Shown here piece after piece: positions 11,706 through 14,589 of a stretch of 64,000 nt of DNA; the stretch's first letter is position 1; every line of letters starts with the position of its first letter. Source of the DNA: Gammaproteobacteria bacterium (lineage in GTDB: Bacteria > Pseudomonadota > Gammaproteobacteria > Pseudomonadales > JADFDG01). Under the pieces are notes generated by a model. It was not told the origin of the DNA. It ran no database searches and was given only the letters and a program-made list of their open reading frames with translations. The translations under genes and the position numbers were made by a program. The stretch spans positions 1-64,000 of the forward strand of contig JADFDG010000009.1 in the NCBI GenBank assembly GCA_018262975.1, written 5' to 3'.

Positions 11706-11871
11706 TGGCCGCATCTGTTGACCCTCCGTGACCTGCTCGTGGAAATGAAACCGCAGTTGCATTCCGTGCAACGCCGGCCCGCAGTACATGGCCGCGCAAT
11801 TACAAAAATTAACAACGCGAGCATGACAACAGTGTCCGCCAGCTACGGCGGACCGGAGCGGGAGGTGGCAG

Positions 11872-14025
11872 ATGCTGTCCATATGGAAAGGTGGAACAAC
11901 GGTACGCGTGGCCGGCGCGCTATGCGTGCTGGCGCTGGCCGGGTGCAACGCGGAGCAGGAAGGCGGTGAACTGGCGGTCTCCGAGGAAATCGGCAGCGCG
12001 GTCGGTGACGCCGGTGTGTTCCCGGAAATCACCGTTGCAGATCTCGACATCACACCCAGGGCCGGCAACACCGCCTACCCGTTGCTGGGCACCAGCAAGC
12101 GCGGCGGTTCGCCGGTGTGGGACTACTGCGAAGACAAGCCCGACAGCACGCCGGTGCCCACCGATCCGCGCTGGCTGGTGCAGCCCGGCATCAGCGACGG
12201 CCGCGCGGTGGCCTTCAACGCCTACTGGAAGGACTGCCACGTCGATCCCGAGGCCGTTGACGAGGTAGGCCACGCGAAGACCTGCGGCGAGTTGCGCCAG
12301 CGCTGGTACGCCGGCGACCGCCTGCTGAACACCGGCAGCCCCGGCGTGGGCGTGCTGTTCGGCGGTGATGATCCGTACACGCTGGAGGCGGCTTTCGGCA
12401 TCTCCACGTTCTCCGCCGCGCAATACAACCAGTTGTGGAAGATCTGGGGCGGGTTTCTCACGCGCCCGTCGAACTTCGACCAGCTGGTGGCCGAGCGTTA
12501 CGGCTCCGGCTTCAAGACGACGTCACGCAACCCGTACCCCAAGCCCGGCGAGGACCCCAACAAGACCAACGGCGGCAGCGGCCAGTTGCCCGAGATGTTC
12601 ACCCAGGTGCGCGGTTACGACGGCAAGTGGACCGGCATGATCGGCGTGACCTGCCATGCCTGCCACTCCGGCGTGGCTGCCAACAAGGTGACCCCGGGCG
12701 GCGGCAACTCCATGCAGGACCTCAACCTGTTCCTGCGTGACATGCTGCCGCTGGGTTACCTGGCGTCGGTGGCGTCCATCGCCAACCTCACCCACACGCG
12801 CGGCACCAACAATGCCAGCGACGTGAACCTCGCCTTCCTGTTCCCCGACGACATCACCAACCTGTGGACGCCCGGCGAGCTGCTGGGGCTGATCACCTCC
12901 GGTTCCACCGCCAGCATGGACACGCCCAACTGGTGGAACATGGGCCACCGCCCGGTGAAATTCGCCGACGGCGTGTTCCCCATGGATGCGCCGCGCGTGG
13001 ACATGGTGTTCTACACGCCGTTCTTCGGCCTGTTCGGCTTTGCCGGCGGCCCGGTGAGCGAGGCCGGCCAGGAGTGGATGCGCGAGAACGGTCCGATGAT
13101 CAACACCTGGGTGGATTCGCTGAAGTCGCCGGCGTATCCGTTGCCGGTGAACACCACGCTGGCCGAGCAGGGCGCCGTGCTGTTCCATGAACTCGACCTG
13201 TGGTCACGCCCGAACACCGTGGCACGCCCGGCCGAGGGCAACGGCTCCTGCTCCAGTTGCCACGGCGCCTACTCGCCGCGCTACGTGAACGACTCGCGCT
13301 GGCTGGCTACCCCGGCACTCGAAGGCATGGCCTCGTACATCACGCCGCAACGCATCATCGCCGCCGACCCGGTGCGCCTGGACACCAACAACGAGATGAT
13401 GCAGCGCGCCGGCGCGAAGAACTTCTTCGGTTACCCGCAGACCTACGGCACCGAGAACGATTGCGGCCCGCAGAACCAGGAGCGCCTGCGCGGCGATCGT
13501 GAGCTCGGCTACCTCGCGCCGCCGCTGTACGGCGTGTGGGCATCGGCGCCGTACATGCACAACGGCTCCATCCCGAACGTCTGGGAGATCCTCAAGCCGT
13601 CCGACCGCAAGGCGATCTGGCGCCGCAAGTCGAAGACCGCGCCGTTCGGCCAGTCCTCGCAGGTGATGGGCTACGACACCAACATGTCCACCGCCTACGA
13701 CAGCGCGAAGATGGGCTGGAAGTACGACACCATCGCCTGCAAGTGGCGCACCTGGTGGAACCCGTCGGTGACGCCGTACATCAGCTGCGACCCGAACGAC
13801 GAGTACAACGACCCGCTGGCCCAGCAGATCCTGTCCGGGCTGTTCTCCAACCTGATCGTGACCTGGAACATCCTGTTCCCGCCCACCCTGACCAAGGCGC
13901 AGATGGAAGATCGCAAGATCTACAACACCATCCTGTTCAGCCAGGGTAACGAAGGCCACGAGTTCAACGCGGTGCTCACCGATGCCGAGCGCACGGCCAT
14001 CATCGAGTACCTGAAGACGCTGTAA
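11872..14025 (+). CDS. Large di-heme c-type cytochrome, RoxA/rubber-oxygenase-like (MauG/CcpA superfamily), predicted lipoprotein
   Basis: CHACH (C261) and CSSCH (C460) heme motifs; lipobox LALAGC; APPLYGVWASAPYMHNGSIPNVWEIL distal motif of di-heme peroxidase-like proteins; 717 aa. Confidence 0.8.
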   Translation: MLSIWKGGTTVRVAGALCVLALAGCNAEQEGGELAVSEEIGSAVGDAGVFPEITVADLDITPRAGNTAYPLLGTSKRGGSPVWDYCEDKPDSTPVPTDPRWLVQPGISDGRAVAFNAYWKDCHVDPEAVDEVGHAKTCGELRQRWYAGDRLLNTGSPGVGVLFGGDDPYTLEAAFGISTFSAAQYNQLWKIWGGFLTRPSNFDQLVAERYGSGFKTTSRNPYPKPGEDPNKTNGGSGQLPEMFTQVRGYDGKWTGMIGVTCHACHSGVAANKVTPGGGNSMQDLNLFLRDMLPLGYLASVASIANLTHTRGTNNASDVNLAFLFPDDITNLWTPGELLGLITSGSTASMDTPNWWNMGHRPVKFADGVFPMDAPRVDMVFYTPFFGLFGFAGGPVSEAGQEWMRENGPMINTWVDSLKSPAYPLPVNTTLAEQGAVLFHELDLWSRPNTVARPAEGNGSCSSCHGAYSPRYVNDSRWLATPALEGMASYITPQRIIAADPVRLDTNNEMMQRAGAKNFFGYPQTYGTENDCGPQNQERLRGDRELGYLAPPLYGVWASAPYMHNGSIPNVWEILKPSDRKAIWRRKSKTAPFGQSSQVMGYDTNMSTAYDSAKMGWKYDTIACKWRTWWNPSVTPYISCDPNDEYNDPLAQQILSGLFSNLIVTWNILFPPTLTKAQMEDRKIYNTILFSQGNEGHEFNAVLTDAERTAIIEYLKTL

Positions 14026-14187: not shown

Positions 14188-14589
14188 ATGCGCTGCCTGC
14201 CTCGCCTCACCCCGGTCCTTGCCCTGCTGGCCACGCTCGCTGTCGCCACGGCAACCGCCGCCGACAACGCCTGCCTGCTGCGCGGCGCCATCAACGACGA
14301 TGGCATCGTGCAGAACGTCAACTACTGCGCGGTGAACAAGGGCATGAGCGCCGCCAGCTTCCGCACGCATTGCCAGGAACTGCACGCCAACCACGTGGAG
14401 GGCCTGAGCCCGGCCGCGGCGCGCGGCGTGAAGCTCTCGTTCCAGCCGGCCTGCCCGACCACCTACAAGGGCGCCTGCGACAATGCCTTCGGCGAGAAGA
14501 TGACGCTGCAGTTCATGGCCGGCGACTCGCTGGTGGTGAGCCGCCAGGCCGGTCTGTTCTGCATATCGATCGACGGTCGCTGGCGGTGA
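14188..14589 (+). CDS. Hypothetical secreted Cys-containing protein
   Basis: Signal peptide MRCLPRLTPVLALLATLAVATATA, several Cys. Confidence 0.55.
   Translation: MRCLPRLTPVLALLATLAVATATAADNACLLRGAINDDGIVQNVNYCAVNKGMSAASFRTHCQELHANHVEGLSPAAARGVKLSFQPACPTTYKGACDNAFGEKMTLQFMAGDSLVVSRQAGLFCISIDGRWR

Follow-up and report, generated by a model that had tools for sequence, protein, structure and literature searches.

The window, by which we mean the whole 64,000-nucleotide stretch of DNA that was analysed, carries at positions 11872 to 14025 of the forward strand a single open frame encoding a 717-amino-acid protein. The N-terminus of this protein is unambiguous, because in our scan the ATG at 11872 is the first ATG, GTG, or TTG after the preceding in-frame TGA, and a GGAGGT lies 5 nt before it. 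Exactly two CxxCH motifs are present in the 717 residues, CHACH (C261-H265) and CSSCH (C460-H464), and they are 199 residues apart, exactly as a preliminary description of this DNA had reported. The mature protein is 76 kDa with its linker counted in, and its pI of 5.02 is closer to published RoxC values than to the 6.3 of RoxB35Y; the relatives that we compared were all acidic. The features of the locus are as follows.

11872-14025, + strand: roxB/latA-type gene, 717 aa (NCBIfam RoxB score, RoxB clade, AlphaFold/Foldseek match to 4b2n)
11861-11866, + strand: Shine-Dalgarno-like GGAGGT, 5 nt upstream of the ATG (sequence)
11872-11943, + strand: predicted signal peptide, residues 1-24, MLSIWKGGTTVRVAGALCVLALAG (sequence; earliest possible start codon in frame)
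11935-11946, + strand: lipobox LAGC with predicted lipidated C25; the +2 residue is Asn (pattern [LVI][ASTVI][GAS]C)
11947-12081, + strand: putative linker, residues 26-70, joining the anchor to the catalytic domain (pLDDT below 50 at residues 1-48; comparison with relatives)
12652-12666, + strand: N-terminal (catalytic) haem site CHACH, C261-H265; H265 corresponds to RoxA H195 (alignment to RoxA)
12961-12963, + strand: F364, corresponding to RoxA F301, distal pocket (alignment to RoxA)
12964-12966, + strand: A365, at the position of RoxA W302 and RoxB V294 (alignment; PMC10837239 Table 1)
13009-13011, + strand: F380, corresponding to RoxA F317 and RoxB F309, the distal Phe beside bound O2 (alignment to RoxA)
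13249-13263, + strand: C-terminal haem site CSSCH, C460-H464; H464 corresponds to RoxA H394 (alignment to RoxA)
13549-13575, + strand: MauG motif PYMHNGSIP; H563 corresponds to RoxA H517 (alignment; PF21419 match at 546-584)
13957-13959, + strand: H696, corresponding to RoxA H641 and RoxB H627, second axial ligand of the C-terminal haem (alignment)

Directly downstream (14188-14589, + strand) lies a gene for a small secreted-looking protein of 133 aa with no Pfam match, and the other neighbours in the window include a ferric-reductase-like protein, a DUF4124 protein, and unnamed small proteins. There are no rubber-related genes among the neighbours in the window, and comparison of wide RoxB loci recovered no operon, conserved neighbourhood, or synteny.

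Profile comparisons placed the protein above the cut-off of the NCBIfam RoxB equivalog (1067.9 bits against 900; E = 0) and below those of RoxC (594 against 900), RoxA (445 against 1000), and the di-haem peroxidase model CytoC_perox, NF040606 (96 against 150); its status as a RoxB equivalog rests on this model score. In Pfam, PF21419 (RoxA-like_Cyt-c) matches residues 546-584, and a sequence search of the PDB gave one strong match, RoxA (4b2n; E 1.7e-105). An AlphaFold model based on 45 aligned sequences (mean pLDDT 83.5, pTM 0.87) recovered the same structure in a Foldseek search of the PDB (E 3.5e-55, TM 0.72/0.79), where no other chain was found at E <= 0.001. It is well supported that the protein is a RoxB/LatA-type di-haem enzyme and not RoxA, because of its family score, its placement in the RoxB core described below, and the lack of the RoxA-specific tryptophan (W302, here A365). 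The preliminary description had favoured the RoxA/RoxB/LatA branch over classic MauG/CcpA enzymes, and profile scores, trees, and fold agree with this choice while narrowing it to RoxB/LatA. The RoxA haem positions that it gave, C191 and C390, were also right, as H195 and H394 in the literature (PMC10837239 Table 1) give the same cysteines and the same spacing of 199. It had named placement among ordinary cytochrome c peroxidases or loss of RoxA active-site residues as observations that would count against its proposal, and we found neither: the peroxidase model gives 96 of the 150 bits of its cut-off, the trees keep the protein outside the peroxidases, and the distal Phe is present as F380.

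In the alignment to RoxA, H265 (H195), H464 (H394), H563 (H517), H696 (H641), F364 (F301), and F380 (F317) are kept; the C-terminal haem has both of its axial histidines, H464 and H696, and the MauG motif PYxHNGS is present as PYMHNGSIP. Variants of RoxA F317 lose most or all activity and those of F301 keep 14 to 21% (PMC6797691), and Ala stands at the F317 position of two RoxCs in which tests showed no rubber activity (PMC10837239, given there as unpublished data). The W302 position is Val in characterised RoxBs and Phe in RoxCs, and the haem histidines of RoxB35Y, H196 and H395, have the same spacing of 199 as in RoxA (PMC10837239 Table 1). Since F380 is kept and A365 occupies the W302 position, where RoxCs have Ala and Phe, respectively, the aligned residues indicate a pocket that is RoxB-like and not RoxC-like. 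Among the loci that we examined, most three-haem paralogues have Ala or Leu at F317; one three-haem lipoprotein (L046:3860-5830, genome G252) has Phe at both the F301 and F317 positions, and a RoxA-related three-haem lipoprotein (L058:1001-2929, genome G234) has Leu at both.

In a sample of 392 genomes from the window's order, 18 had a protein over the RoxB cut-off, and in a phylum-wide sample of 399 genomes the window's own genome was the only one to pass. An initial tree was made quickly under a simple model and carried a long-branch warning; the one that we relied on is a mixture-model tree, in which the protein falls within a RoxB core of 16 rows (support 100/100), with RoxA (100/100) and the three-haem and CSICH-type lipoprotein paralogues placed outside it. 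This tree was built without the characterised RoxB35Y and LatA sequences, and the link from the clade to these enzymes is made by the NCBIfam model and by features listed in Table 1 of PMC10837239; some CSICH-type paralogues also exceed 900 bits, so that the cut-off is slightly wider than the core. The closest rows are L012 (70% identity), L021, and L023. Both L012 and L023 come from the family-level group f44, whose GlnD is 60 to 61% identical to that of the window's genome and among the top of the 15 genomes compared, but GlnD of G324, the source of L021, is just 49% identical, hinting that roxB in G324 was possibly acquired by transfer. Two other genomes contain islands of Rox paralogues, with seven Rox-family genes in 35 kb (G192:C1:3513803-3548775, L116-L118) and nine in 59 kb (G272:C23:300001-359241, L112-L115); both mix RoxB core, CSICH/CSFCH-type, and three-haem proteins, and one frame in the latter encodes at least 1784 aa with four CxxCH motifs.

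The N-terminus, MLSIWKGGTTVRVAGALCVLALAGC-N, includes a canonical lipobox, LALAGC, with C25 at the exact end of the hydrophobic stretch, and 45 residues separate C25 from the start of the conserved domain. The proposal that this lipobox anchors the protein to the membrane stands at the level of sequence as a prediction, with lipidation of C25 predicted from the pattern. The motif alone is moderate evidence, because shuffling of residues 2-40 yields a lipobox by chance in about 5% of cases, and we place weight on its position together with the linker and the recurrence of the trait. The start of the linker is predicted to be disordered, with pLDDT below 50 across residues 1-48 of the AlphaFold model, and RoxB relatives that have ordinary signals mostly lack the linker or have a shorter one. 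Published RoxA and RoxB are given as Sec-secreted and the lipobox as a RoxC feature (PMC10837239); the export signal here is thus of the lipoprotein type by pattern, as opposed to their ordinary Sec type. Thirteen of the 16 RoxB core rows lack a usable lipobox, and the three predicted lipoproteins are the window protein, L009 (FAAC; from a Myxococcales MAG), and, with less certainty, L023 (TPGC); stray pattern matches in L012, L015, and L017 either precede the likely start or sit where the hydrophobic stretch begins. Forcing the three into a single clade was rejected (p-AU 1.5e-5), which argues that, as predicted from sequence, the lipoprotein trait changed more than once in the RoxB core or was ancestral and often lost. 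The one unusual feature of this protein is a lipid anchor predicted for a RoxB whose pocket appears intact.

The genome itself is 3.3 Mb and 99.95% complete in 29 contigs; it is the single representative of its family-level group among the genomes compared, and a 16S rRNA gene was not found in the assembly. A search of this genome recovered no second Rox protein and no RoxA. RoxB without RoxA is common within the sampled genomes of the order: in a co-occurrence count covering 13 of these genomes, only 1 of the 12 with a RoxB-scoring protein (G324) was also over the RoxA cut-off, and G134 had RoxA with no RoxB over the cut-off. Conversely, carriers of roxA nearly always have roxB too (PMC6311187). 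The genome also encodes 14 MPAB_Lcp_cat (PF09995) proteins, three of them in tandem (e.g., C23:266793-269533, L064), and such proteins number 7 to 15 per genome in RoxB-bearing members of groups f28 and f44 and 0 to 3 in the other genomes tested. We rejected the idea that an Lcp substitutes for RoxA, as 10 of these 14 proteins were scanned and none received an NCBIfam name, and L069, which matches LcpK30 best, carries Glu at K167 and lacks an evident signal peptide. Carriage on a plasmid or virus was likewise rejected; there was no close relative in viral contigs or in plasmids, where only partial peroxidase-like matches below 60% identity were recovered.

A type II secretion system (T2SS) secretin, GspD, is encoded in the genome (548 bits, over the cut-off), and GspD was present in 11 of 11 genomes tested, which rules out a missing T2SS as the cause of the lipid anchor. 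The T2SS takes some lipoproteins, such as PulA, and the c-type cytochrome lipoproteins MtrC and OmcA to the cell surface. A surface location is therefore possible, but the presence of the secretin does not by itself establish it.

The family, clade, residues, fold, lipobox, T2SS secretin, and absence of RoxA were all computed directly, and the reading that we consider best and probably correct is that of a tethered, endo-cleaving polyisoprene dioxygenase of the RoxB/LatA type, in which the enzyme class is well supported and the substrate and surface location are what we infer. O2 would be bound at the N-terminal haem, with H265 as the proximal ligand and no protein ligand on the distal side, and F364 and F380 would be part of the hydrophobic pocket around it. 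Endo cleavage and its products have been described for RoxB35Y and LatA, and by analogy with these characterised enzymes (PMC6311187) the protein would act as a polyisoprene dioxygenase, making internal cuts at the C=C bonds of poly(cis-1,4-isoprene) or of a comparable long isoprenoid and releasing oligoisoprenoids of C20 and longer that end in aldehyde and keto groups. An electron-transfer or structural role would fall to the C-terminal haem (H464/H696). Sec export, lipidation of C25, and the 45-residue linker would hold the enzyme on the outer membrane, and we speculate that the T2SS might expose it at the surface, where polymer would be cut at cell contact. Against this reading speak A365 in place of the V294 of characterised RoxBs, the only 70% identity of the nearest locus row, the lack of rubber-related neighbours and of conserved synteny, a lipobox predicted from pattern, and a mature pI closer to RoxC values; an outer-membrane lipoprotein may also face the periplasm, out of rubber's reach. 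The fuller proposal of a catalytically competent, surface-tethered RoxB lipoprotein that degrades its polymer on contact by endo cleavage alone, with no RoxA trimming to C15, and whose tethering arose or disappeared on more than one occasion within the RoxB core, is plausible, though as a whole we would sooner doubt than affirm it.

The main rival is an enzyme of RoxB catalytic type on the periplasmic face of the outer membrane that acts not on rubber but on another isoprenoid or unsaturated lipid (squalene, polyprenols, carotenoids, or membrane fatty acids). A lipoprotein signal, a genome lacking the RoxA partner, and neighbours unrelated to rubber would all suit such an enzyme, as would the oxidation of unsaturated fatty acids proposed for lipoprotein RoxCs (PMC10837239), but the distal Phe and the other active-site residues fit rubber-active enzymes and not the tested inactive RoxCs, and the protein belongs to the RoxB-core clade; we consider this rival unlikely, if deserving of serious attention. 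Less likely again is an ordinary secreted RoxB, processed by signal peptidase I, in which a lipobox-like stretch arose by chance. Such a protein would agree with the shuffling result and with the 13 core rows that lack a usable lipobox, but it would not be expected to have a canonical LALAGC exactly where the hydrophobic stretch ends, nor a long and mostly disordered linker after it, and two further core RoxBs are lipoprotein-like.

The tethered polyisoprene dioxygenase also has to be set against membership in two other groups, to both of which we give very little probability. The lipobox and acidic pI recall RoxC (PMC10837239), the lipoprotein group without demonstrated rubber activity, but we rejected this identity on the RoxC model score and on F380 and A365, where tested RoxCs have Ala and RoxCs have Phe, and the protein has no third haem domain and lies in a clade separate from RoxC-like three-haem rows. 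The most improbable alternative is a di-haem cytochrome c peroxidase or MauG-like enzyme; the MauG motif and di-haem core are shared, and CytoC_perox does match weakly below its cut-off, but the size of the protein, its distal Phe, and a fold search that found RoxA only all point elsewhere, and we rejected this membership on scores, tree, and fold.

The gene thus adds a new member to the already known RoxB family, and apart from the predicted anchor its features are those expected there. It provides an apparently intact RoxB, with its catalytic residues mapped, from a small genome that lacks RoxA. Because the lipobox is not limited to the RoxC group, the lipoprotein signal and the loss of a rubber-type active site appear to be separate traits. 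If the predicted tether is real, the protein would serve as a test case of polymer degradation that depends on cell contact, and as an example of a rubber oxygenase displayed naturally on the cell surface.

Among known systems, the latex clearing protein Lcp of mostly Gram-positive bacteria resembles this enzyme in its presumed reaction, the oxidative cleavage of rubber, but is an unrelated b-type haem protein (PF09995 family). RoxA of Steroidobacter cummioxidans 35Y (4b2n) shares the fold, haem spacing, F301, F317, and haem-ligand histidines, and differs in its ~34% identity, in having W302 where Ala is found here, and in a first haem motif of CSACH instead of CHACH; the window protein is also below the RoxA cut-off. 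The RoxCs of Fontimonas and Oceanococcus have a lipobox, which is not unique to them, and an acidic pI in common with it, but have Ala at F317 and Phe at W302 and in many cases contain a third haem (PMC10837239), in contrast to F380, A365, and two haems here. The closest likeness is to RoxB of S. cummioxidans 35Y and RoxB (LatA) of Rhizobacter gummiphilus NS21; the predicted lipoprotein signal and linker in place of an ordinary Sec signal, A365 for V294, GSIP for GSVP, and the absence of RoxA from the genome set our protein apart from these enzymes, but like them it passes the NCBIfam RoxB cut-off, and it shares with them the haem His spacing of 199, the distal Phe, the MauG motif PYMHNGS, and the second axial His of the C-terminal haem, and with RoxB35Y the first haem motif CHACH.
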